Source: an uncultured Bacteroidia bacterium (lineage in GTDB: Bacteria; Bacteroidota; Bacteroidia; Bacteroidales; F082). Taken from it: 33,930 nucleotides of DNA. The stretch covers positions 1 through 33,930 of the forward strand of contig CADCML010000060.1 in the NCBI GenBank assembly GCA_902802535.1, written 5' to 3'. Under the pieces are notes generated by a model, which saw only the letters and a list, made by a program, of their open reading frames with translations, did no database searches and was not told where the DNA came from. How positions within the stretch are numbered: position 1 is the stretch's first letter; every line of letters begins with the position of its first letter. The position numbers were made by a program, and so were the translations under genes. Of this stretch, positions 1 to 12,061 are shown piece by piece.

Positions 1-1
1 A

Positions 2-1063
2 TGGGCCAACTCCCTGTTTGAGGACAACGCCGAGTACGGTCTCGGTATGGCCACGGGTGCCCGCAAGCTCCGCGAAGGCCTCCGCAAGAAGGCTGAAGAA
101 TTGGTGAACACGACCGTCTTCGACTGGATGAAGGAAGCCACGCAGAATTGGCTGAACACCTACAACGACACGGTCGCCAACCGCAAGGCTACTGACGAGT
201 TCGTCGCCGCCCTCGAAAAGGCCATTATGCCTATCGATGCTTGCGTCGACTTCTGGAACGGAGAAGGCAAGAAACTTTATGGTGCCGAAGTGGCAGCCCA
301 GAAGCTGCAAGAAGCCAAGGATGCCAAGGCTGCTGGTAGCAAGATTTGCCCCTGCCACGGCTGCGCTCTCGAGCAAGAACTGTTGGACAACAAGGACTTC
401 CTCGCCAAGAAGAGCCAGTGGATCTTCGGTGGTGACGGTTGGGCTTACGACATCGGTTTCGGTGGCCTCGACCACGTGTTGGCCAGCGGCGAAGACGTCA
501 ACGTTCTCGTCCTCGACACCGAGGTTTACTCGAACACGGGCGGTCAGAGCTCCAAGGCTACGCCTGCCGGTGCTGTCGCCAAGTTTGCTGCCTCTGGTAA
601 GAAGGTCCGCAAGAAAGACCTTGGCATGATTGCCAAGAGCTACGGATACGTCTATGTGGCTCAGGTTGCCATGGGTGCTTCGCAAGCCCAGTACTTCAAG
701 GCCATCAAGGAAGCTGAGGCTTATCCTGGCCCGTCGCTGGTGATTTGCTACGCTCCGTGTATCAACCACGGCATCAAGATCGGTATGGGTCACTCACAGA
801 TGGAAGAGAAACTCGCCGTCGACTGCGGTTACTGGCACCTCTGGCGTTTCAACCCCGCCGAGGAAGACGCTGGCGAGAACGGCTTCCACTTGGATTCGAA
901 GGAACCCAACTGGGCCGAGTTCCAGAACTTCATCATGGGTGAGGTGCGTTACAACTCGCTCGTGAAGACCTTCCCCGAGGAAGCCAAGGAACTGTTCGCC
1001 AAGACCGAGCAGTTTGCCAAGCTCCGCTATGAGGGGTATAAGAAGCTGGCTATGGGAGAATAA
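2..1063 (+). CDS. nifJ: Pyruvate:ferredoxin (flavodoxin) oxidoreductase, C-terminal part
   Basis: This is the 3' end of a gene whose start lies before the window; the frame is open from base 2 (first residues WANSLFEDNAEYGLGM). The enzyme converts pyruvate and CoA to acetyl-CoA and CO2 and reduces ferredoxin or flavodoxin in the cytoplasm. The fragment holds the thiamine-diphosphate-binding domain: GGDGWAYDIG is encoded near 428-457 and DTEVYSNTGGQ near 515-547, followed by the typical YAPCINHGIK stretch. A Cys-rich CPCHGC motif (347-364) sits just before this domain; I cannot say whether it binds metal. The gene is GC-rich (about 58% in one 60-base sample), unlike the island that follows, and a strong terminator sits 22 bases after its stop. 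Identity is secure; only the N-terminal pyruvate-binding, CoA and 2[4Fe-4S] regions are out of view. Confidence 0.96.
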   Translation, partial: WANSLFEDNAEYGLGMATGARKLREGLRKKAEELVNTTVFDWMKEATQNWLNTYNDTVANRKATDEFVAALEKAIMPIDACVDFWNGEGKKLYGAEVAAQKLQEAKDAKAAGSKICPCHGCALEQELLDNKDFLAKKSQWIFGGDGWAYDIGFGGLDHVLASGEDVNVLVLDTEVYSNTGGQSSKATPAGAVAKFAASGKKVRKKDLGMIAKSYGYVYVAQVAMGASQAQYFKAIKEAEAYPGPSLVICYAPCINHGIKIGMGHSQMEEKLAVDCGYWHLWRFNPAEEDAGENGFHLDSKEPNWAEFQNFIMGEVRYNSLVKTFPEEAKELFAKTEQFAKLRYEGYKKLAMGE

Positions 1064-1085
1064 ATCCTAATTATGCTAATGAAAA

Positions 1086-1120
1086 ACGGCGCATCCGATG
1101 GGGTGCGCTGTTTTTTTATT
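1086..1120 (+). terminator. Rho-independent terminator of the PFOR gene
   Basis: An 11-bp stem (1086-1096 with 1101-1111, including two G-T pairs) closes on the loop GATG and runs into TTTTTTTATT. It lies directly after the PFOR stop and separates that gene from the AT-rich island. Confidence 0.9.
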
Positions 1121-1124
1121 GATA

Positions 1125-1156
1125 TTGGTGCTTGTTCAAGATTTTGTTTATTTTTG
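1125..1156 (+). promoter_or_regulatory. Possible promoter of the AT-rich island operon
   Basis: TATTTTTG (1149-1156) fits the Bacteroidetes -7 box TAnnTTTG. A weak -33-like TTGG lies about 20 bases upstream (1125-1128). It is placed between the PFOR terminator and the first island gene at 1218. The sequence here is AT-rich, so a chance match is possible. Confidence 0.35.
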
Positions 1157-1217: not shown

Positions 1218-2864
1218 ATGAATAATTCTACATTCTGCCCCGAGAAAGTCTATTATAGCACTACTTATGTTCGAGATATTTCAGGTAATAATAGATCGGC
1301 TTTAGTTAAAATTGGGGAAAGAAGGAAAAACATAGCCATTGTCTATGACTCCAGTAATAATGGATTGTGTTTGATTAATGGAGAAAATGAGATAATTTAC
1401 AAATCGAAACTTGAGGATATTAGTTCTGGCATCGGTAGGCATAATGGATTTAGTTGTAATATTCGACGTACTATAAAAGGTTTCTATATTGTTAGTAGAA
1501 TCGACTATTATAGAAAGATAAATGTGGGGAAAGATGATCAAGATGTCGAAGAAGAAACATTCATTGTGTTAGATGAAGACGGTGAAATAGTTCCTGAAAT
1601 TTCACTTGAAAATGCTGGAATTGGACAATATTCTTATGAACTTGGAAACAAATTGGTTGTATATGATAATGTATGCTATGATATTGAAAGTTTAAAACCT
1701 GTTTTCACAATCCCCAATAAGTATAGAGTTTGTAGTATAATTCAAAACGGGTTAATTTATCTGGAAGTCCCTGGAGATTATAAGCAAATTATTGTTGCTG
1801 TTCAAAACCACGAAATCATCCATCAATATTCTATTGAAGAATTTGACTCTTTAAAAAATAGCATTCAAACGACAAAAGAGTTCATTGATAGTAAAAACGA
1901 AGAGTATTTAAAGAAGTATGGCTCTATCGTGTTTTCAAATTTATTATTTGACCGTTCCATCACAATAAGTGACACAAATGATTCATGGTCAGATCAAGAA
2001 GTACTATTTAATAATATGCAAGAGATAGACTCCAAGCATATGGATATATTAAAGTACATATATAACGCTCTCAAGAAATCAAATCATCCTAGAACCTCGC
2101 AAAATGGAGCAGAACGTTATGTCTCATGTTTGACTAATAGAATAATTGTATTATTCTATGAAAATTTGTTGGTACTTTCTTTATATGGAGATAGTTATTA
2201 TAATTATAGGTTCTTTAATTTAGAAGGTAAACCTCTGCATGATGGTACATTCACATCTTTTAAACCATTTTATTTATATGATGACAAGGCTTTTACCCGT
2301 TGCATTTTTATTATGCAAAATTCACAAACAAAAGAAAAGTGTATAATTCATACTCTCCCTGACAGAATTGAGATTACAAACATTCCATATAATATCAATG
2401 TATATGATCATTTTGGCTATTTAGAGATGAAAGACAATAATTCAGGTAAAAAATGGGATTGTGACTATAGTTTGAATAGATTAACAACAAAGTATGTAAT
2501 GTGTCATGTCGTCCCTCTAATAAACAACTATCTTTATACACTACGAGATTTATTCCTTTACAAAGGTAGTATTGTTAGAGAGAATGGTATCATTTCTAAT
2601 ATGTCACCAGATAAAATCCTAAAAAACGGAGAACTATTATTGCCTTTTCCGAAATCATACAAAGAATGTATTGAAGAAATAGAAACAAGACATAACAATC
2701 GCCCTAACTATATTTCTGATATAGAAAAGGTCGCTGATTATGAAATAGATGGACGTTTGATGTCTTTCTATAAGTTTTCATGTAAACCATGGGCTTATTG
2801 TGACGAAAATGGTCGTATCTATTATGATTTTGATCCTGACAACATTGATTTAACTTCAAAATAG
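1218..2864 (+). CDS. Uncharacterised 548-aa protein, first gene of AT-rich island
   Basis: I do not recognise this family. The protein is rich in beta-strand-like stretches with recurring aromatic/Asp-Gly patterns, such as FIVLDEDGEIVPEI near residues 114-127 and FFNLEGKPLHDG in the middle. This would suit a beta-propeller or similar all-beta repeat fold, but no clear repeat can be proven by eye. No signal peptide or membrane segment is seen, so it is probably cytoplasmic. The start ATG follows an AT-rich leader with no clear Shine-Dalgarno, as is usual in this phylum. It is the first gene of a tight five-gene run (only 6 bases before the next start). Sampled lines have about 30-37% GC against about 58% in the upstream gene, which suggests horizontal transfer. 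Function unknown; a sensor or recognition role in the island is only inference. Confidence 0.85.
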   Translation: MNNSTFCPEKVYYSTTYVRDISGNNRSALVKIGERRKNIAIVYDSSNNGLCLINGENEIIYKSKLEDISSGIGRHNGFSCNIRRTIKGFYIVSRIDYYRKINVGKDDQDVEEETFIVLDEDGEIVPEISLENAGIGQYSYELGNKLVVYDNVCYDIESLKPVFTIPNKYRVCSIIQNGLIYLEVPGDYKQIIVAVQNHEIIHQYSIEEFDSLKNSIQTTKEFIDSKNEEYLKKYGSIVFSNLLFDRSITISDTNDSWSDQEVLFNNMQEIDSKHMDILKYIYNALKKSNHPRTSQNGAERYVSCLTNRIIVLFYENLLVLSLYGDSYYNYRFFNLEGKPLHDGTFTSFKPFYLYDDKAFTRCIFIMQNSQTKEKCIIHTLPDRIEITNIPYNINVYDHFGYLEMKDNNSGKKWDCDYSLNRLTTKYVMCHVVPLINNYLYTLRDLFLYKGSIVRENGIISNMSPDKILKNGELLLPFPKSYKECIEEIETRHNNRPNYISDIEKVADYEIDGRLMSFYKFSCKPWAYCDENGRIYYDFDPDNIDLTSK

Positions 2865-2870
2865 TGTTAT

Positions 2871-3929
2871 ATGTCTAAACAAACAGTGTGTCAAAAGACA
2901 AGCAACCCAACTAATAAGAATATTTGTTGCTTATGTCAAAGGAATGAGGCTACAAAAACAAATTCTCATATTGTGCCAAGTTTTTTAGGAGCACGTGTAT
3001 TCAGTTATGATGGCAGTGGTAAACGGGGTAAAGAGGTGGCTTTCACATTAACTGCTTCAAGACAAAAAGTACATACTGGTGATTTGCCATCGACAAAGTT
3101 TGAAGAATTGTTTGATGAAAAGAGTCTTACCGATGAACGAATTGAGGAGTTGAGGGTTGATTCGCTGGCGAAAGATTATTACTTATGTCCTAATTGTGAG
3201 AAACTGCTTGCTGATTATTTGGAATCTCCATACGCTTCTCTTTTTAAAAATGAAAAACAAATTCCAGGGGATATTGCATTATTCTTCTGGATGTCTGTTA
3301 TATGGAGAATATCAATTACAAGAGTATTAGGAGATTGGCTATCTACTGATGTTGAAGACAGCATGCGTACTTACTTGTTTTCATTTCTTGAGCAGAAACA
3401 AAAAGGACAAGACACATCGACTTTAAAAGAAAGCACACCATTTGTATATAAAGTGCTATTTAACTCTGATTATCTAAAAGAGAACGCTGGCTTTGTTAAT
3501 TTCAAAACAAATGAAACGCATGATTGCGCGGCTTTTCTTTGTGGAGATATTGCAGTATTTATGGGCCAAAAGGATTGTGTTTGTGATTTTTGGGGACTTG
3601 AAGAATATGTTGAGAATGCTCCGATGAACAATGGCCTATTGATAGAGAAAAGATGTATTATTCCGATAGATACTTTTTTGAACGCAAAAAATGCAATCAT
3701 CAATGAATTTAAGGAGAAAAAAATGGAATTTGAACGAAACCTTCTTAATCAAGTATGGAAGAAACTGAATCTCAAAGGAGAAATGCCAATAGAATTGCAG
3801 AATGAAATTATTTATTCTATACATGGAGATGGACTAAAACTCGGTGACAGGGGTGAAGTTATGATGTGGTCTCCTATTATTTATGAAAAGATTTCCAATT
3901 TTTTAAGACGAAATATAATAATACTATGA
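2871..3929 (+). CDS. HNH-endonuclease-like Cys/His-motif protein
   Basis: The 352-aa protein begins with a CxxC pair (C19, C22), then NSHIVP (residues 31-36), and a second pair CPNC (106-109). A CxxC...SHIxP...CxxC arrangement is typical of zinc-stabilised HNH/His-Me-finger nucleases, where the His in the SHIVP segment would be catalytic; that assignment rests on motif similarity only. The C-terminal two thirds (about 135-352) is mixed helical and unrecognised. The gene starts 6 bases after the 548-aa gene and its last four bases (ATGA) overlap the next start, so it is translated with the rest of the island. HNH proteins next to ABC-type ATPases are known from the Septu defence system (PtuA/PtuB), but here the order and gene set differ. 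It could instead be a non-catalytic zinc-binding protein. Confidence 0.75.
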   Translation: MSKQTVCQKTSNPTNKNICCLCQRNEATKTNSHIVPSFLGARVFSYDGSGKRGKEVAFTLTASRQKVHTGDLPSTKFEELFDEKSLTDERIEELRVDSLAKDYYLCPNCEKLLADYLESPYASLFKNEKQIPGDIALFFWMSVIWRISITRVLGDWLSTDVEDSMRTYLFSFLEQKQKGQDTSTLKESTPFVYKVLFNSDYLKENAGFVNFKTNETHDCAAFLCGDIAVFMGQKDCVCDFWGLEEYVENAPMNNGLLIEKRCIIPIDTFLNAKNAIINEFKEKKMEFERNLLNQVWKKLNLKGEMPIELQNEIIYSIHGDGLKLGDRGEVMMWSPIIYEKISNFLRRNIIIL

Positions 3930-4261
3930 ATGATAAAGACATATTTGACTTCATTAATGCCAACTTCACAATGCGTAACAATGCTGATTGTTTCAGTAAG
4001 CTCAATTGTTTTGTTGATGCAATGCATAGAGGACAATACTACCCAATTACCGACGAAGAAATACATCGAGGGGTGGAATATAAGAAAGCCGAAGGCAAAG
4101 CACTATTGAAAGCCCTTGACCCCATCATCCCTGACAAAGATAAGAAATTAGCTGAAGCGATGGTTGAAACCTTTTGCAATCAAAGCTTGCAGCAGTTTTT
4201 ATATTACAATCATTCATACGAAAACCGAAATAATCTCGTTCAACAAGAAATATCAGAATGA
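3926..4261 (+). CDS. Small uncharacterised protein (111 aa) of the island
   Basis: The protein is soluble, mostly charged and probably helical; no family is recognised and there is no signal peptide or membrane segment. Its start overlaps the HNH-like gene by 4 bases, and its stop overlaps the ATPase start by 4 bases (ATGA both times). Expression is therefore expected to be coupled to both neighbours. Wedging between a putative nuclease and an ATPase would suit an accessory or regulatory subunit, which is inference. The AT-rich base use matches the rest of the island. Confidence 0.75.
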   Translation: MNDKDIFDFINANFTMRNNADCFSKLNCFVDAMHRGQYYPITDEEIHRGVEYKKAEGKALLKALDPIIPDKDKKLAEAMVETFCNQSLQQFLYYNHSYENRNNLVQQEISE

Positions 4262-5571
4262 ATATGAGTCCTATCCAAATATCAATAAAAGATTATAAGG
4301 CTGTAAAATCAGCAGAGATTGGTTTAAATGGCATTACGCTAATCTCTGGTATAAACGGTTCTGGAAAGAGTAGTATATCCAAACTGCTTTATTATGCTTT
4401 CAAATATGCAAATGACTATGAGAGCATAGCGAGTGATTCAGTCATGCCAGAGTTAAGACAAATTGGACGACTTGTCAGCAATTTAACAATGGGATTAAGA
4501 CGAGGTGTGTCTTCTGCTGAAATGAGGAACTATTATCGACATGCGGAAGATGCCAACTCAATTGAGGTGAAAATTGATGCGTATTGTGCCGCACTTGAGT
4601 TGTTCAAGGAATCCGTTGTGGGAAACGAAAACACCTTGGATTCCAACGATGAGAATGTGCTTAAGCGTATTAGAAGCATTATTGATGACAGCATATTAGA
4701 CAAGAGGAAAAACAAGGATGCTTCTTTAAGTGAAATGTTAGAAGATGTCATCAAGAAAACGCAAGGAATAAAAGAAAAAGTCCTAGGATTATCGTCAGTT
4801 CGGGGGTATGCTTTATACAGACAATACTTAACGGAAGTATTAGAGAGCGATTTGAAAGGTGTGAGGATTGCTGAGTATGGAGTCCCTTTTGTAGGAAAAG
4901 AAGTGTCTAATGTTCCTGTACTTAGCTTCATACAACAAGCTGTCTATATTGACACTCCAATGATTGTCGGAATGAATAGGCGTGTGTGGTATCCAATAAT
5001 GGAGTATTGGAAAGACTTAAATGATCTTTTGGAAATCCCGGTGCAGAAATCATACAGTCATGCGATTAACCAATATATAAAGAATGTTATTCATGGTGGC
5101 TCATACTACGATGATTCTTTATCATTTAAAGGAAACATGAAATACAAAAGAGATGACGGTCTTGTAATTGATTTGTTGGATAGTGCTACGGGAATAAAAT
5201 CATTCTCTTTGTTGCAGACATTGTTAAGGAATGGTGTCCTTTCGGAAAACACTTTGCTTCTTATCGATGAGCCAGAAGCTCATTTGCATCCGCAATGGAT
5301 TGTGGAATACGCAAGAATCATAATAATGTTGCATAAAAAACTCGGAACGAAATTCTTTATTGCATCTCATAGTACCGACTTCGTTAGCGCTATGAAGTAC
5401 ATCGCAGAAAAAGAAAAAGTCAGTAAATCAGTATCATTCTATTTAGCTGAGGAAGATTTGAATAAACCATTCTCATACAACTACAAATCTATTGGGACAG
5501 ACATTGAGCCGATATTTGCCTCGTTTAATAAATCACTTGATAAAATAGGAGAATATGGCGGCTGGCAATAA
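4258..5571 (+). CDS. ABC/OLD-like ATPase (AAA_21-type) of the island
   Basis: The 437-aa protein has a P-loop GINGSGKSS (31-39), a signature-like SATGIKSFSLLQ (309-320), a Walker B LLLIDEPEAHLHP (333-345) and an H-loop-like ASHSTDF (369-375). This order is that of RecF/OLD-type ABC ATPases, with a helical insertion (about 85-290) between the two halves. Such stand-alone ATPases pair with nucleases in many defence systems (PtuA in Septu, AriA in PARIS, retron and Gabija ATPases). No TOPRIM domain is visible at the C-terminus, so the nuclease activity would have to come from neighbours. The start overlaps the previous stop by 4 bases and its 3' end overlaps the next gene by 17 bases. Family assignment is firm; the role in defence is inferred. 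Confidence 0.92.
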   Translation: MNMSPIQISIKDYKAVKSAEIGLNGITLISGINGSGKSSISKLLYYAFKYANDYESIASDSVMPELRQIGRLVSNLTMGLRRGVSSAEMRNYYRHAEDANSIEVKIDAYCAALELFKESVVGNENTLDSNDENVLKRIRSIIDDSILDKRKNKDASLSEMLEDVIKKTQGIKEKVLGLSSVRGYALYRQYLTEVLESDLKGVRIAEYGVPFVGKEVSNVPVLSFIQQAVYIDTPMIVGMNRRVWYPIMEYWKDLNDLLEIPVQKSYSHAINQYIKNVIHGGSYYDDSLSFKGNMKYKRDDGLVIDLLDSATGIKSFSLLQTLLRNGVLSENTLLLIDEPEAHLHPQWIVEYARIIIMLHKKLGTKFFIASHSTDFVSAMKYIAEKEKVSKSVSFYLAEEDLNKPFSYNYKSIGTDIEPIFASFNKSLDKIGEYGGWQ

Positions 5572-6082
5572 TAAAAACTCAGGTGAGAAGTGGCTTTATT
5601 CTGCTGGTATTACAGATGGTAGCAATATCAAACAGAGACACCCAAAAACATACCAACAAATTGCAGAAATAGTAAAAGAAGAGAAATGCAAAGGCAAAAC
5701 ACCTTTCACCAAAGAAAAAGCATTATATTTGGAATTAGTTGAGTTTGAACTCGCTAAGGGAAAGCGTGACTTGTGTCCCATTGTCGATTTTACATTCGGC
5801 ATTGCACGTAATAATTCAAAGAAATACCGACTTGTTGAGGCGAAGTTTGATGTGGATGATTTGAAAAACATTGATGAGAAAAACATTAGGGATAAGGTTA
5901 GCCATTCAAGAGATGTGATGAAAGAAGACGGGATTCCCGTAGATAATGGTGCTGTCGTTTTGGTAAATAAGAGCAAGATAGTTGAACAACAAAAGAACTG
6001 GTTTTCTCGGCGATTACAGCCTTATGGCAATTATCAAATAATGACCATTGACGATTTGTATTTTCATTATTTTGTTTCGTAA
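5555..6082 (+). CDS. Small protein with PD-(D/E)XK-like motif, last gene of the island operon
   Basis: The gene begins inside the ATPase gene (17-base overlap, different frame), so the pair is probably co-translated. The 175-aa protein holds IVDFTFG (76-82) and, after an interval of basic residues, RLVEAKFDV (92-100). The spacing D78 ... E95-x-K97, with helix glutamates E60/E63 upstream, matches the PD-(D/E)XK nuclease core; a later strand NGAVVLVNK (131-139) also fits. The alternative is a non-catalytic restriction-like fold or a chance match. I recognise no named family. As the partner of an OLD/RecF-like ATPase it would be the likely effector. The start ATG at 5555 is preceded by an A/G-rich stretch (AAATAGGAG) that could serve as ribosome binding site. 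Confidence 0.8.
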   Translation: MAAGNNKNSGEKWLYSAGITDGSNIKQRHPKTYQQIAEIVKEEKCKGKTPFTKEKALYLELVEFELAKGKRDLCPIVDFTFGIARNNSKKYRLVEAKFDVDDLKNIDEKNIRDKVSHSRDVMKEDGIPVDNGAVVLVNKSKIVEQQKNWFSRRLQPYGNYQIMTIDDLYFHYFVS

Positions 6083-6090
6083 TATGTTGT

Positions 6091-6471
6091 TTGTTCCCAC
6101 AACGGAAATCACCGCGTGCCCCATGGCACGATTACAATGGCGGAAGGTATTTCGTGACCTTTTGCACGAAAAACCATGAATTGTATTTTGGCGATGTGGT
6201 TGATGGTAGGATGGAATTGTCGGAAATCGGGGAATATGCGTTAAAATGCATTGATAAAATCCCGGAAATCAATGATAATGTCGCGGTTCCTGAATTTGTG
6301 GTAATGCCGAATCACGTTCACATTATTGTTATTATTGATAATCCAATTGAATGGCCGGATGACCAGCGGCTGCCACGGTGTGACAGCCTTACACCCCAAA
6401 ACGGAAATATGATGTATAATTTCGGGTTTTTATGCCTCCCATACCACGGCAGCCGCAAATCTCGACAATGA
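6091..6471 (+). pseudogene. Truncated REP-associated tyrosine transposase (RAYT, Y1/HUH family)
   Basis: The reading frame begins RKSPRAPWHDY...GRYFVTFCTKN and contains the HUH motif VMPNHVHIIV (about 72-81), as in IS200/RAYT-type transposases. After about 95 residues the similarity ends; the catalytic Tyr region and the usual C-terminal half are missing and the frame stops at 6471. The only possible start in frame is TTG at 6091, 8 bases after the previous stop. It is thus probably a remnant. An inverted 9-bp pair GCGGCTGCC/GGCAGCCGC (6366-6374 and about 6448-6456) lies within the foreign tail and could be a REP-like hairpin. The fragment marks the right edge of the AT-rich island, next to the terminator of secG. 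Confidence 0.75.
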
Positions 6472-6480
6472 AATGGTTGA

Positions 6481-6517
6481 AAAAACAAAAAAGAGGACGA
6501 CCGGAATCATCCTCTTT
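6481..6517 (-). terminator. Rho-independent terminator of the secG operon
   Basis: Read on the minus strand, an 8-bp perfect stem AAAGAGGA/TCCTCTTT (6517-6510 with 6497-6490) with a 12-base loop is followed by a T-rich run (TTTTGTTTTTT). It lies 25 bases after the secG stop. Confidence 0.85.
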
Positions 6518-6541
6518 ATCATTTGTTCGATTGTCTGTCTA

Positions 6542-6895
6542 TTATTCAGCTGGCGTCTGAGCGGGAGTCTCCGAAGCGGCGGGCATTTCCATCGCAGCGG
6601 CAGGAGCTTCGGCAGTCGGCAAGGCTGGAATGATGCCTTCAACCTCACTCTTAGGAGCACCTTCCTTGGAGTTCTTAGGCAGGCTGATACTCGAAACCAG
6701 GCAGAGCACAACCAAGATGCCAGCCATCGTCCATGTGGCTTTTTCAAGGAAATCGGTCGTCTGACGAACGCCCATCATCTGATTGGCACCTCCAAAATTG
6801 GAAACCAAACCACCACCTTTTGAGTTCTGAACCAGAACAATCAATCCTAATAACACACTGACAATCAGGATTAAAATTACTAATACTGTGTACAT
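6542..6895 (-). CDS. secG: Preprotein translocase subunit SecG
   Basis: SecG is the small membrane subunit of the SecYEG channel. The 117-aa protein has two membrane segments (about 4-25 and 55-76) around the conserved NSKGGGLVSNFGG loop (24-36), which is diagnostic. A Pro/Ala/Glu-rich tail (about 80-117) is common in Bacteroidetes forms. The gene starts 17 bases after the TPR gene and is the last of the minus-strand block regulator-lptE-TPR-secG, closed by a hairpin terminator. Confidence 0.95.
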   Translation of the reverse strand: MYTVLVILILIVSVLLGLIVLVQNSKGGGLVSNFGGANQMMGVRQTTDFLEKATWTMAGILVVLCLVSSISLPKNSKEGAPKSEVEGIIPALPTAEAPAAAMEMPAASETPAQTPAE

Positions 6896-6912
6896 TTTTA
6901 TTGATTTAATGT

Positions 6913-7737
6913 TTAACTTTCTTTTATCCTTTCAATTTGGGCTGCAAAATAACGACTTTTTTCTGGATATTTCAAGCTTAATTTTTCATAAATTGACATT
7001 GCCTTCTCCAAATACCCCTGTTTTTCATAGATTTTGGCCAAAGTTTCGCTGACGATGTTCTCTTGGTCGATGATGCTGTTTTGCGCCACCGAGATGGGAT
7101 TGTAGAACTCTGCCTTGGGTCGCGTGATGCTGGGATTTTCAAGTATAAACTTGTCTATCAGTTCCTTGCGTGAAAGTTTCTTGGCCTTGGGTTGTTCGGT
7201 TTCCTTGCGTTGTTTTTCTTCCTCGATTTCTCTCAGACGGTTGGCGATGATGGCTTTCAACTCGTCGAGCGACTTGCGCTTTTCTTCCAGTAGCGCCATT
7301 TCGGCCGAAAGTTCCTCACGACTGCCCCTAAGGTCAATTTCGGGGATGATGAACACCTTCTCGCGGATGATGTCGTTGTCATGTTCTTCATGGGTCTCGA
7401 TGGCTTCGATGGAGGAAAAGACATTGTCGCTTGGCTCGGCGATTTCTCTTGGCGTGCGTTCTTCAGTTGCAACAGGCGCTTTCGACTCGCTTTCCAATCG
7501 ATGATGGGCTAACATGGTGAGGATACGCAACTTGTTACGGTTGGGCGTAATGGCGGCGGTGTGCTTCAGCTGTTCGTCGTAACGTGCATCGTCGGTATTG
7601 TGATAGGCGATGGTCAACAGGGTTTGCCCGATGGCGAAATAAGGATAGTCGGCCACCAACTGCTCCATCTCTTTCACGGCGCCGTCTTTCAACGTCTCGG
7701 GTCGTGTCATGTATCCTATCAATTGCTTGCTGTCCAT
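6913..7737 (-). CDS. TPR-containing hypothetical protein (Bacteroidales secG neighbour)
   Basis: The 274-aa protein has an N-terminal helical region (MDSKQLIGYMTRPETLKDGA..., 1-75), a charged low-complexity linker with a Glu/Lys/Arg coiled-coil-like stretch (about 125-185), and a C-terminal TPR-like unit. In the latter, ETLAKIYEKQGYLEKAMSIY and YEKLSLKYPEKSRYFAAQIE (about 232-268) show the A/Y/P pattern of a tetratricopeptide repeat. There is no signal peptide, so it is probably cytoplasmic. It lies between lptE and secG, a gene order I know from Bacteroidales genomes. Specific function unknown. Confidence 0.85.
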   Translation of the reverse strand: MDSKQLIGYMTRPETLKDGAVKEMEQLVADYPYFAIGQTLLTIAYHNTDDARYDEQLKHTAAITPNRNKLRILTMLAHHRLESESKAPVATEERTPREIAEPSDNVFSSIEAIETHEEHDNDIIREKVFIIPEIDLRGSREELSAEMALLEEKRKSLDELKAIIANRLREIEEEKQRKETEQPKAKKLSRKELIDKFILENPSITRPKAEFYNPISVAQNSIIDQENIVSETLAKIYEKQGYLEKAMSIYEKLSLKYPEKSRYFAAQIERIKES

Positions 7738-8285: not shown

Positions 8286-9449
8286 AAATCTATGCCGTAT
8301 TCGTTGATTTTGCGGTAAAGTGTGCGTTCACTAATGCCCAAAGCCTTGGCCGCGTCCTTTCGCTTACCGCGATGGGCTTCCAAAGCCTTGATAATCATTT
8401 CTTTCTCATGGTGTTCGAGGGAAAGCGTTTCGGGCGTTGAGCTATTGGTCATTGAGCTTGTCGAAACGACCCCATAGTGCGAAGTTTCCTCGGCGGGAAT
8501 GAACTCGGCATATTCCTGCTCACTGACCTCTGGCTCATCTTGGCTTACCCGCGTAACTACCGTGTCGCCGATTTGTGTGACCGAATTGGGTTGCACGTAT
8601 GTCGGCTCCATCGGGCGACTGCCGCTCATATTATTGACTTGCGCGCGCAATTCGGCGATGTCTTTTTTCATGTCGAACAGCACTCGGTAGAGCAAGTCGC
8701 GCTCCGACATGCCTTCGGGCGTGTCCTCGCGAGGTAACAATACGGGTAAATTGTTTATCACCCTGTTAGGCAGATACTTGGCCAAGGTTTCAGTCGTGAT
8801 GTTGCGGTCGGTTTCCATGATGGAAATCTGCTCGGTCACGTTTTTCAGTTGGCGCACGTTGCCGTCCCAACGGTAGTTTTCCAGCATTTTTGTGGTTGCG
8901 CTCGGCGAAATCGGCGGCAAACTTCCTGAACAAGAGGGGAATGTCGGCCTTCCTTTCGCGCAAGGCGGGGATATGGATCGGGATGGTGTTCAACCTATAA
9001 TACAGGTCTTCGCGGAAACGCCCACGCTCGATGGCCACGGGCAAATCCACATTGGTGGCGGCCACGATTCTGACATCGGTTTTCATCACCTTGTTGCCGC
9101 CCACACGGATGAACTCACCGTTTTCGAGCACACGCAAAAGTCGTGCTTGGGTGGAAAGCGGCAACTCGCCGACCTCGTCCAAAAACAAAGTGCCTTTGTC
9201 GGCAATCTCGAAATAGCCCTTGCGCTCATTGACGGCACCCGTGAAGGAACCTTTTTCATGGCCAAACAGCTCAGAATCAATGGTTCCCTCGGGGATGGCA
9301 CCGCAGTTCACGGCGAAATATTGTCCGTGTTTGCGGGTGCTGTTTTGGTGGATGATCTTCGGAAACACGTCCTTGATGCCGATGGCGCGGTCCAATTCGG
9401 GGTCGGTGCCGATGATGCCGAAGGTGCGTTTTATTGCTTGTACGTCCAT
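8282..9449 (-). pseudogene. Sigma-54-dependent Fis-type transcriptional activator, two lesions
   Basis: Two overlapping frames make up one gene. The first (9449 down to about 8890) has the AAA+ core: GSFTGA loop (67-72), Walker B LFLDEVGE (88-95), and the [21 protein letters not shown] segment. The second (about 8908 down to 8282) continues with [12 protein letters not shown] and ends in a Fis-type helix-turn-helix (HRGKRKDAAKALGISERTLYRKI). Two changes set it apart from its family. At about 9372-9383 the text jumps from ELDRAI to [10 protein letters not shown], so the usual segment holding the Walker A GESGxGK is gone (about 23-25 residues, in frame). At about 8886-8905 the frame shifts, with loss of the usual MPPI...-like linker. 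As written it cannot bind ATP or reach its DNA-binding domain. Both may be real decay or consensus error. Confidence 0.85.
8447..8471. repeat. REP-like TGTCGAA element inside the sigma-54 regulator coding region
   Basis: GGTC-ATTGAGCT-TGTCGAAAC-GACC: an element with GGTC/GACC ends and the TGTCGAA core. It lies in the part that encodes the low-complexity STSSMTNSSTPET linker of the regulator, before the helix-turn-helix domain. It keeps the frame open. Confidence 0.45.
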
Positions 9450-9452
9450 GAC

Positions 9453-9492
9453 AGTTGTTCAGTTAGTCAGTTAGTCAGTTGTTCAGTTTGGC
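9453..9492. repeat. 8-bp tandem repeat upstream of the sigma-54 regulator
   Basis: Five units of eight bases: AGTTGTTC, AGTTAGTC, AGTTAGTC, AGTTGTTC, AGTTTGGC. The array starts 3 bases before the regulator's ATG (minus strand, 9449), in the place of its leader. Slippage here would change leader length but not the protein. Confidence 0.8.
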
Positions 9493-9589
9493 TGATGGCC
9501 GATGGCTGATGACTATGGCAACTTAAACCAAGGGTAGAGGTTTGTGCCTTTGATAAAATTGCCATAGTCATAGGCCATAAGCCATGGTC
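9490..9589. repeat. Long imperfect inverted repeat between pheT and the sigma-54 regulator
   Basis: TGACTATGGCAA (9510-9521) and TTGCCATAGTCA (9559-9570) are perfect inverted copies 37 bases apart. Outside them the match continues imperfectly (GATGGCTGA... against ...TAGGCCATAAGCC). It fills the gap between the pheT stop and the regulator. It could be a small hairpin element or a weak terminator of pheT; there is no clear T-run. Confidence 0.6.
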
Positions 9590-9592
9590 CTT

Positions 9593-12061
9593 TTATCTTA
9601 AAACTCCTCCCAACTGCTGTTCAAACGCACTTTGAATCTTCCCCATCGTCTTCTCGATCACCTTGTCGGTGAGGGTGGTGGTGGGCGACATCAGCACGAA
9701 GCTCATGGCGTATTGTTTCTTGCCTGCCGGAATCTTCTCACCTTCGTAAACGTCGAACAGGCTCATGGATTGCAAAATCTTGTTCTCGGCACTCATGGCG
9801 ACTTTCTTCACCGCATCGAAAGTGACGTTCTTGTCGAAAATCATGGCGAGGTCGCGGCGCACGGCGGGGAACTTCGACAACGGCTCGAAATGCACTTCCT
9901 TGGCTTTGGCTAAGCATTGCATCATCATGGTCCAGTTGAAGGTGGCGTAATAGACGTCCTTCTTCAGGTCGAAGTGCTTCAAGGTCTTCTTGCTGAGTTT
10001 GCCGAGGGTGACAATCTCCTTGCCATCAACGCTATAGGTGGTGGCAAAGTCGAAATGCGGCAGGTCGGCTTCCTTGGCTTCGAGGGCGTTGCAGTCGAAC
10101 TTGAAGTGATTGAGCACGCCCATGACGTATTCTTTAAGGTCGAAGTAATCGAGGGCTTTGCTCGGAGCGTTCCACAGTTCGGCCTGCTTGTTGCCGGTAA
10201 GGAAGAGGTCGAGGCAGGTGTGCTCGTTATAGGGTTTGAGCGGTTTGGTCTCGTCGCCGACTTTGCTTGCGTCGAAGAAATAGACGTTACCAAACTCGAA
10301 GAATTTCATGTCGCTGACCTTGCGGTTTTGGTTGAAGGCGATGCTCTCCAGTCCGCCCCACATCAAGGTCTGACGCATCACGTTGAGGTCGCTGCTGAGC
10401 GGGTTTAATATCTTCACGTTCTTCTCGGGCTCAAAGGCAGGGAAGGCCTCGCTGTAGGCGGCCTTGGTGAGCGAGTTGTTCATAATCTCGTAGAAGCCGT
10501 TGGCAACGAGCATGTCGCTGATCTTCTGCTGCATCTTGTCGGCGTCGGGCTTGGTGGCGCGGCTGATGGAGGCATGGATGCGGCTCGGGATTTCGATGTT
10601 GTCGTAGCCGTAAATGCGCAAGATTTCTTCGACCACATCGGCAGGACGAGTCACATCGACCTTGCTGGTGTGCACATCGACCACAATGTGTTTGTCATCT
10701 TGTTCAACGACTTGACATTCAAGGCTCTTTAGTATGTTGACGGCTTGGACAGGGTCGATGACCTTGCCAGCCAGTTTGTTCAAATAGTCAAATTTCAAAT
10801 CCACGCGGGCAGGGGCGAAGTCGCCGTTTTTCACGTCCTTGATTTCGGAGGAAATCGTTCCGCCGGCCAACTCCTTTATTAATAAGGCGGCGCGTTTCAG
10901 GGCGTAAAGGGTGATGTTCGGGTCGGCACCGCGCTCGTAGCGGAACGAGGCATCGGTTTGCAGGCCGTGGAACTTGGAGGTCTTGCGGATGCTGGTGGGG
11001 TTGAAGTACGCACTCTCGAGGAAGACGTTGGTGGTTTCCATCGTCACGCCCGACTTCTGTCCGCCAAACACACCGCCGATGCACATGGGTTCTTCGGCGT
11101 TGCAAATCATCAGGTTACGGCTGTTGAGCTTGCGCTCCACGCCATCGAGGGTGACAAAAGGCGTGCCCTCGGGCAGACATTTCACCACGACCTTCTTGCC
11201 CGTGATTTTGTCGGCATCGAAAGCGTGCATGGGCTGTCCGACTTCCATCAGCACGAAGTTGGTGATGTCGACGATGTTGTTGATGCTGCGGATGCCGACG
11301 GCAGCAAGGCGGTTCTTCAGCCAGGCCGGCGACTCGCCGACTTTCACGCCGCTGACGGTCACGCCAGAATAACGCGGGCAGGCTTGCGTGTCTTCAACGA
11401 CCACGTCGATGTCGTAGTTGTGGTTTTCCACCTTGAAGTCGTCCACCGAGGGGCGGATGAGGTGGTATTTTGTGGTGTTCTCACGCTGGTTGAGGGCGGC
11501 CACGAGGTCGCGGGCCGAGCCGATGTGTGAGGTGGCGTCACTGCGGTTGGCGGTGAGGCCGATTTCAATCGTATAATCCTCTTCCACAGGGAAATAGAAG
11601 GATGCGGGCTTGCCCACTTCATAGTCGTTGGGCAGCACCATGATGCCCTCGTGGGAGGTGCCGAGTTGCAACTCTTTTTCCGAGCAAATCATGCCTTCAG
11701 AGACCTCACCCCGAATCTTGCCCTTCTTGATGGTGATGTGTTCGTCGCCAATCCAAAGTTCAGTGTTAATGGTGGCCACGAGCACCTTTTGGCCAGCCGC
11801 CACGTTGGGTGCGCCGCACACGATGTGCAATGGTTCCTCGCCGCCCACATCGACGGTGGTGATGTGCAGGTGGTCGGAATTGGGGTGGTCGACGCAGGTG
11901 AGCACCTTGCCCACGACGACGCCTTTCAGTGCGCCTTTCACCGACTCGAAGCGCTCCAAATCTTCCACTTCGAGGCCCGTGGAGGTGAGCACCTCGCTGA
12001 CTTTCTCAGCCGAATAATCGCAGTTGACGTATTGTTTCAACCAGTTATAAGAAATCTTCAT
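9593..12061 (-). CDS. pheT: Phenylalanyl-tRNA synthetase beta subunit
   Basis: PheT forms the alpha2-beta2 enzyme that charges tRNA-Phe. The 822-aa protein starts MKISYNWLKQYVN and has, in order, an EMAP-II-like tRNA-binding domain (about 40-150, VVVGKVLTCVDHPNSDHL), the B3/B4 editing region (about 210-370, with GVFGG near 350), B5 (about 405-475), the catalytic-like core (YGYDNIEIPSRIH ... about 490-680), and a C-terminal FDX-ACB anticodon-binding domain (about 730-822, FEPLSKFPAVRRDLA). The length is normal. A further in-frame ATG lies directly before the chosen one (12064) and another at 12106; homology begins at MKISYN. It is transcribed away from the ATPase gene, and shares a repeat-rich intergenic region with it. 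Confidence 0.96.
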   Translation of the reverse strand: MKISYNWLKQYVNCDYSAEKVSEVLTSTGLEVEDLERFESVKGALKGVVVGKVLTCVDHPNSDHLHITTVDVGGEEPLHIVCGAPNVAAGQKVLVATINTELWIGDEHITIKKGKIRGEVSEGMICSEKELQLGTSHEGIMVLPNDYEVGKPASFYFPVEEDYTIEIGLTANRSDATSHIGSARDLVAALNQRENTTKYHLIRPSVDDFKVENHNYDIDVVVEDTQACPRYSGVTVSGVKVGESPAWLKNRLAAVGIRSINNIVDITNFVLMEVGQPMHAFDADKITGKKVVVKCLPEGTPFVTLDGVERKLNSRNLMICNAEEPMCIGGVFGGQKSGVTMETTNVFLESAYFNPTSIRKTSKFHGLQTDASFRYERGADPNITLYALKRAALLIKELAGGTISSEIKDVKNGDFAPARVDLKFDYLNKLAGKVIDPVQAVNILKSLECQVVEQDDKHIVVDVHTSKVDVTRPADVVEEILRIYGYDNIEIPSRIHASISRATKPDADKMQQKISDMLVANGFYEIMNNSLTKAAYSEAFPAFEPEKNVKILNPLSSDLNVMRQTLMWGGLESIAFNQNRKVSDMKFFEFGNVYFFDASKVGDETKPLKPYNEHTCLDLFLTGNKQAELWNAPSKALDYFDLKEYVMGVLNHFKFDCNALEAKEADLPHFDFATTYSVDGKEIVTLGKLSKKTLKHFDLKKDVYYATFNWTMMMQCLAKAKEVHFEPLSKFPAVRRDLAMIFDKNVTFDAVKKVAMSAENKILQSMSLFDVYEGEKIPAGKKQYAMSFVLMSPTTTLTDKVIEKTMGKIQSAFEQQLGGVLR

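Follow-up and report, generated by a model that had tools for sequence, protein, structure and literature searches.

Do five closely packed genes in one AT-rich tract form a single undescribed defence system, or are they separate pieces of cargo gathered at one site? This question is raised by a contig of an uncultured Bacteroidia bacterium (Bacteroidales; F082), CADCML010000060.1 of assembly GCA_902802535.1, whose 33,930 nucleotides constitute the window, that is, the whole stretch analysed (it is contig C60 of a draft genome of 3.7 Mb, estimated as 85% complete and 6.3% contaminated). A first-pass annotation made from the letters alone had read positions 1218–6082 as a single system of five genes, among them two putative nucleases and a large protein of a new kind. 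We consider it likely that the tract is instead composite cargo gathered at a recombination hotspot, the 3′ end of a pyruvate:ferredoxin oxidoreductase (PFOR) gene, with genes 4 and 5 forming a complete ATPase–PD-(D/E)XK module and genes 1 and 2 as passengers. One candidate five-gene system is replaced by a sharper object, a two-gene pair found together in 80 of 80 kept loci and small enough for direct cloning and testing. The features of the window are as follows (aa, amino acids; ORF, open reading frame; L numbers denote loci):

1–1063, plus strand: 3′ part of the PFOR gene, left edge of the hotspot, with its stop at 1063.
1081–1116, plus strand: terminator-like hairpin of 16 pairs behind the PFOR stop.
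1149–1156, plus strand: possible operon promoter, TATTTTTG, fitting the Bacteroidota consensus TAnnTTTG.
1168, no strand: left breakpoint, where DNA similarity to L101 and to L107 both stop.
1218–2864, plus strand: gene 1, 548 aa.
2871–3929, plus strand: gene 2, 352 aa, Cys/His protein (CxxC...SH...CxxCEK).
3926–4261, plus strand: gene 3, 111 aa, small leader gene associated with the hotspot.
4258–5571, plus strand: gene 4, 437 aa, ABC ATPase of the SMC/RecF/PtuA type.
5555–6082, plus strand: gene 5, 175 aa, predicted PD-(D/E)XK-fold nuclease.
6091–6471, plus strand: truncated RAYT/IS200-like ORF, 126 aa, right edge of the hotspot in many relatives.

The ORF list agrees with the annotated layout of five plus-strand genes, the spacing from gene 1 to gene 5 being +6, −4, −4 and −17 bases. 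The low GC content was likewise confirmed, at 0.30–0.38 in the tract; GC is 0.57 in the leftmost kilobase, 0.42 over positions 6001–7000 and more than 0.5 from 7001 to about 12000.

We scanned an alignment of gene 4 against 84,980 species genomes, which yielded at least 415 relatives, and kept the best 80 loci (the 80 gene-4 loci). A gene-5 profile match, homologue or fragment, lay directly after gene 4 in all 80, its start falling from 142 bases ahead of the gene-4 end to 205 bases beyond it (measured from first possible start codons). The profile was iterated on these same 80 loci; its first round, seeded by five proteins, already gave 74 matches, and some matches are fragments, where a contig stops or the gene is split (e.g., L111, L131, L142, L160 and L170). 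Over 187 loci (1.67 Mb), the profile produced 97 matches, 82 inside the 80 gene-4 loci and the remaining 15 in overlapping gene-4-bearing loci of the window and six other genomes. Six gene-4 proteins aligned well with one another, and the gene-4 neighbours in genomes G185, G093, G170 and G189 were gene-5-like (by profile in all four, by BLAST in G185 and G170); G105 held merely a 96-aa piece of gene 5. We read genes 4 and 5 as a complete, self-contained two-gene ATPase–PD-(D/E)XK module.

Judged by record titles, the 80 gene-4 loci come mostly from Bacteroidales and other Bacteroidota, plus Fibrobacter, WOR-3 and a few metagenome-assembled genomes (MAGs) labelled Firmicutes; the closest named records with the pair are Bacteroidia MAGs from rumen and gut. 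L167 carries the label Erysipelothrix, yet its PFOR end resembles those of Bacteroidales, and the record may be a binning error. A single-sequence search found gene 5 in 4 of 291 genomes of the order (own included), once inside a 1,298-aa ORF. No relatives of genes 1, 2 or 4 were found in viral contigs and none of genes 2 or 5 in plasmid records, while a single contig among phage records matched gene 4 (28% coverage, 36% identity). Two other copies of the pair have conspicuous genes behind them: an HNH_5-type-looking nuclease (by eye) about 1 kb downstream in L113 (10846–11742), and a 921-aa protein with a PHP domain and an SMC-type ATPase in L045 (4866–7628), in the PFOR hotspot.

Genes 1 and 2 look like independent passengers that are not tied to this pair. 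Their homologues (profiles of three and four sequences) were present in 0/80 gene-4 loci, of which 58 had at least 3 kb of room before the match and 22 had less. Because of this absence, the five genes are probably not one immune system. Co-location of all five had been set beforehand as the test of the first-pass annotation's system, and the five did not travel together: one relative, at 98% protein identity, carries genes 3–5 but not genes 1 and 2. Relatives of gene 1 occurred in two same-genus genomes only, behind PFOR in L057 and elsewhere in L044, both shorter than gene 1 (2 of 295 genomes in one search and 3 of 119 in another, own genome in both). Gene 2 belongs to a rare family (matched in 4 of 295 genomes, its own among them). 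In the stretches examined around the gene 2 relatives (L006, L007 and L008) and the gene 1 relatives, the remaining genes of the set were not found. One promoter now probably serves genes 1 and 2 together with the rest of the tract.

The annotation of gene 2 as an HNH-like Cys/His protein survived in part. Its relatives keep the pattern C-x2-C ... SH ... C-x2-C-E-K; HNH proteins usually show Asn/His after the second CxxC, which the gene 2 relatives do not, and we rejected the HNH assignment on the incomplete motif and the lack of any HNH family match. The best Pfam match was DUF6896 (E = 9e-4, below the family cut-off), and weak matches to families of unknown function were obtained for gene 2 (phrog_26326) and its relatives (phrog_19960). 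Weak Pfam matches of genes 1, 3 and 5 (CBM_21, DNA-PKcs and IL10; E = 0.05–0.11) were discarded. The gene 2 relative in L008 adjoins apparent type I restriction genes (by eye) and is followed by an 844-aa protein (9244–11778) that looks similar to the 921-aa protein of L045 (by eye). In L044 (6466–8632), the gene 1 relative precedes a 277-aa protein reminiscent by eye of RES-domain toxins that cleave nicotinamide adenine dinucleotide (no PHROG match).

Gene 3 was found in 3/80 gene-4 loci (L108, L110 and L186), and is the gene immediately before three different ATPase pairs, here and in relatives of this genome; it precedes an AbiL/RloAB pair in L107 and, in L212, an ATPase pair resembling the PDC-M29 pair of L094 (by eye). 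Further copies occur in L100 and, as two pieces, in L210. The same leader role is taken by proteins with a C-terminal T5orf172/MUG113 domain, which precede gene 4–5 relatives in L111 (6783–7943) and L173 (6840–7985), and PDC-M29 ATPases in L094 (1234–2388) and L095 (8517–9341; L095 by likeness). We regard gene 3 as an accessory or leader gene, swapped among several ATPase pairs at the PFOR site, and no longer as the fixed member of a set that the annotation had made of it.

The PFOR 3′ end is a cargo hotspot. PFOR was matched in 47 of 60 same-genus genomes (weakly in at least three), and same-genus genomes match the window's PFOR and right-hand genes at about 73–97% protein identity. We examined 45 same-genus flanks, including the window, the second PFOR of its genome (L208) and one genome's second copy (L209), and excluding L045 (another family), L211 (PFOR end not found) and L212 (a later addition). 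The first kilobase had a GC content below 0.40 in 25 of the 45 flanks, with PFOR ends at 0.43–0.59 across the 45; the contrast was weak in a few flanks (L201, L205 and L206). First genes, identified in 24 of the 25 AT-rich flanks, fell into about 19 unrelated clusters (L101 and L107 share theirs), and L091, where none was picked, holds a helicase like that of L089 (by eye). Eight of the other 20 flanks go directly to one of two recurring genes (one gene in L097, L105, L188, L198 and L209; the other in L189, L192 and L196), and look like empty sites. The PFOR of L208 (G000:C95:1160–2164) is 87% identical to that of the window, with different genes downstream; given the 6.3% contamination, it may come from another organism.

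Ten cargo proteins, picked by eye from seven flanks, were scanned with PADLOC. Seven of the ten matched at E ≤ 1e-4, namely AbiLi and AbiLii in L107, PDC-M29A ATPases in L094 and L095, a TIR-like protein in L090, an HNH protein in L088 and the helicase in L089; the scan gave no match for the L092 cargo or the small partners in L094 and L095. The L104 flank contains an HsdM methylase, and the AT-rich L199 flank opens with the gene of a BspA-type leucine-rich repeat protein, which is no recognised defence gene. A PFOR end lay near the pair in 8/80 gene-4 loci (L108, L110, L111, L112, L162, L167, L173 and L186). Scanning Bacteroidales genomes at the site behind PFOR could thus yield more candidate defence genes.

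The edges proposed for the tract, a PFOR terminator and a truncated RAYT, held up as positions; the RAYT name is less secure. Pfam POR domains are present in a full-length PFOR relative (L162:3905–7462), and the last 163 bp of PFOR were found in 26 of 27 other loci searched (two pairs being the same place). The hairpin at 1081–1116 is one of four such sites in the window (2.9 in shuffles), and many related PFOR flanks show hairpins of the same kind (by eye). The right-hand ORF is indeed shortened (126 aa versus 218 aa in the L101 relative); it matched Pfam Y1_Tnp at E = 0.05, its longer relative had no Pfam match at E ≤ 0.001, and the RAYT name, otherwise based on sequence motifs, is weak. Positions 1149–1156 may be a Bacteroidota −7 promoter element, a motif found at chance frequency in the whole window (21 found versus 20.1 expected); several relatives carry similar motifs at the place of the promoter box (by eye).

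Genes 4 and 5 were transferred recently together. The window and L108/L101 are 94% identical in DNA over 2568 bp covering genes 3, 4 and 5 and the start of the RAYT-like ORF (window 3910–6456), versus 86.5% in the adjoining PFOR, and L108/L101 have two other small genes in place of genes 1 and 2. PFOR pieces recur to the right of the cargo in seven loci (L045, L162, L173, L167, L186, L111 and L212):

L045, 2799–2876 and 8480–8565: extra PFOR tails beyond the AT-rich cargo, 78 bp at 85% and 86 bp at 80% identity.
L162, 10082–11056: codons 780–1105, from the gene-5 stop to the contig end, protein identity 88.7%.
L173, from codon 780: PFOR repeat beginning at the gene-5 stop, as in L162.
L167, from codon 778: PFOR repeat beginning at the gene-5 stop, as in L162.
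L186, from codon 801: PFOR repeat about ten bases after gene 5.
L111, codons 848–970: PFOR repeat at 51% identity.
L212, 3762–4016: codons 1102–1186, directly at the stop of the ATPase pair's last gene.

This recurrence of PFOR pieces on both sides of the cargo hints at movement by recombination within PFOR; on our reading, the cassette arrives with a PFOR end of its own. L162 has a whole left copy, and L186, L045 and L212 have long ones. Between its two PFOR tails, L212 (3762–8246) carries a 394-aa protein that resembles restriction endonucleases (by eye), a homologue of gene 3 and the PDC-M29-like ATPase with its small partner (by eye). A right-hand copy was sought in the window and rejected: the full PFOR query finds the left copy, and the next match has E = 0.1.

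It is conceivable, though we would sooner doubt it, that defence cassettes use the 3′ third of PFOR as a landing pad and, having no recombinase themselves, move by homologous recombination; Bacteroidales would then possess a cassette exchange system. Such a cassette would combine part of the PFOR coding end, an exchangeable leader (gene 3 or the T5orf172 type) and an ATPase–nuclease pair; it would enter by recombination in PFOR, supply the left PFOR end, and leave a truncated second copy on the right. Several observations speak against it. The left PFOR copy breaks near codon 1100 in L212 and amounts to the last 41 codons alone in L111 and L173; these incomplete left copies and the differing starts on the right do not fit a single clean event. 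Tyrosine recombinases also lie within about 8 kb of the gene 4–5 pair in 4/80 loci, away from PFOR:

L120, 9971–10909 and 16232–17170: tyrosine recombinases.
L150, 5480–6868: tyrosine recombinase.
L165, 4242–5450: tyrosine recombinase.
L129, 13182–14306: tyrosine recombinase.

Three recombinase queries found none in the PFOR-site stretches searched (about 10 kb each). Since recombinases stand near other copies of the pair, and the left PFOR is not whole in L111, L173 and L212, our confidence in both the composite-cargo explanation and the cassette model is lowered. Similar traces would result if a site-specific integration were followed by loss of the integrase, or if flanking DNA were transferred repeatedly. 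The duplicated PFOR ends are a testable clue to the mode of cargo movement.

The two proteins of the pair were characterised by structure modelling and conservation. The top Foldseek match of gene 4 was PtuA of Septu, tied with SMC heads; its ATPase elements extend to the end of the 437-aa chain, which ends after the ATPase, with the Walker A motif at about 31–38, the signature at about 310–316, Walker B at about 334–345 and H371. The gene 5 model had a predicted local distance difference test score (pLDDT) of 92.6 and shows the alpha-beta-beta-beta-alpha-beta core of the PD-(D/E)XK superfamily, in which D and (D/E)xK lie on the central strands or next to them. The putative site comprises E43, E60, D78, E95-x-K97 and K114, and D78, [ED]95 and [KR]97 are kept in 61/61 relatives. 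Gene 5 is predicted to be a nuclease of the PD-(D/E)XK superfamily, as the first-pass annotation had suggested; its pairing of an ABC ATPase with a nuclease-fold protein in a defence-like setting was also supported. We infer an antiviral role for the pair, because it combines a PtuA-like ATPase with a nuclease-fold partner, has a defence candidate as its best catalogue match and shares its site with defence genes. The gene 4 ATPase would form an SMC-like dimer holding the gene 5 nuclease silent, and would sense infection through phage DNA ends, a phage protein or DNA damage; an ATP-driven rearrangement would then free the nuclease, which would cut nucleic acid and stop the phage, perhaps sacrificing the cell, much as in Septu and PARIS.

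The alternatives differ in how many genes they count and in what the pair does. That all five genes form one defence system, other arrangements being degraded or partial copies, gains from their low GC and their (nearly) overlapping course on one strand; we hold it to be highly improbable, given 80 gene-4 loci lacking genes 1 and 2 and relatives of either gene that stand without the other members. A smaller system of genes 3, 4 and 5, with gene 3 as a specific regulator or sensor of the ATPase–nuclease pair, fits the position of gene 3 directly upstream of gene 4 in the window, L108, L110 and L186. Its rarity among the gene-4 loci and its place before the AbiL/RloAB pair (L107) and the PDC-M29-like pair (L212) argue against pair specificity, and make this quite unlikely.

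A different kind of alternative keeps the pair and denies it an antiviral role, seeing a selfish addiction or toxin–antitoxin module, in which the ATPase would keep a nuclease toxin in check and which would chiefly serve its own maintenance, or a DNA-repair pair like Rad50–Mre11. The pair frequently stands alone between genes that look like housekeeping genes (12 flanks by eye), SMC/Rad50 heads match the gene 4 structure as well as PtuA does, and gene 5 is split or short beside a long gene-4 ORF in, for example, L111, L131, L142, L160, L170 and L183. These loci were selected on gene 4, however, so that breakage of gene 5 and gene 4 is not fairly comparable, and some breaks may be assembly errors; moreover, the site is shared with recognised defence genes, and patchy occurrence with recent transfer would be unusual for a repair system. 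We judge this alternative unlikely, and retain composite cargo with a self-contained gene 4–5 module as the probable explanation.

Among known systems, OLD, Gabija GajA and the retron Eco8 effector contain an ABC ATPase domain related to gene 4, and carry a C-terminal Toprim in the same chain according to PMC10568477; gene 4 has no Toprim match, and neither of its neighbours in the window is a helicase, as GajB would be. AbiL (RloA–RloB) shares the plan of an ABC ATPase with a small partner, and in L107 the same PFOR site behind the same gene 3, but its partner RloB belongs to a different family from gene 5. PARIS (AriA–AriB) likewise has ATPase and effector on separate genes, and the AriA profile matched gene 4 at E = 1e-17; whereas AriB is a Toprim protein (PMC10568477), gene 5 has no AriB/Toprim match, and has a predicted PD-(D/E)XK fold with a conserved motif.

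The first-pass annotation had invoked the Septu plan, and that comparison stood in part for the ATPase half: the fold of gene 4 resembles PtuA and SMC heads equally well. Septu (PtuA–PtuB) is a two-gene plan of ATPase and nuclease in which PtuB is an HNH protein (PDB titles agree). The partner in the present pair is no HNH protein, since gene 5 has a predicted PD-(D/E)XK fold and matches no PtuB/HNH model; gene 2 also lacks an HNH/PtuB match, and is no regular companion of gene 4.

Of the catalogued entries, the PADLOC candidate HEC-02 comes closest; it is one of the Hma-embedded candidates (HEC) of Payne et al. 2024 (bioRxiv 10.1101/2024.01.29.577857), as cited in PMC12988326. A literature search found no description of HEC-02 or of a PFOR hotspot, preprint descriptions lying outside its coverage. 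HEC-02A was the best PADLOC match of gene 4 (E = 1e-26), and its models matched 28/28 gene-4 relatives at E ≤ 1e-10, best over residues 269–393; the AriA and NsnB models also match all 28, and the tool gives no official cut-off. For HEC-02B, gene 5 of the window had no match at E ≤ 1, and the models matched 2, 1 and 1 of 61 gene-5 relatives (best E = 7e-5). The HEC-02B model of 344 positions matches the ATPase instead of gene 5, whereas those of 171 and 182 positions, similar in size to gene 5, find a match in the small partner gene of L050, a more distant relative (E = 2e-5). Because the small partners of distant ATPases show a similar D...ExK pattern by eye (L050:10279–10941, L051:7467–8099, L052:4483–5097 and L054:4622–5308), the gene 4–5 pair may belong to a broader ATPase–PD-(D/E)XK group that includes HEC-02.

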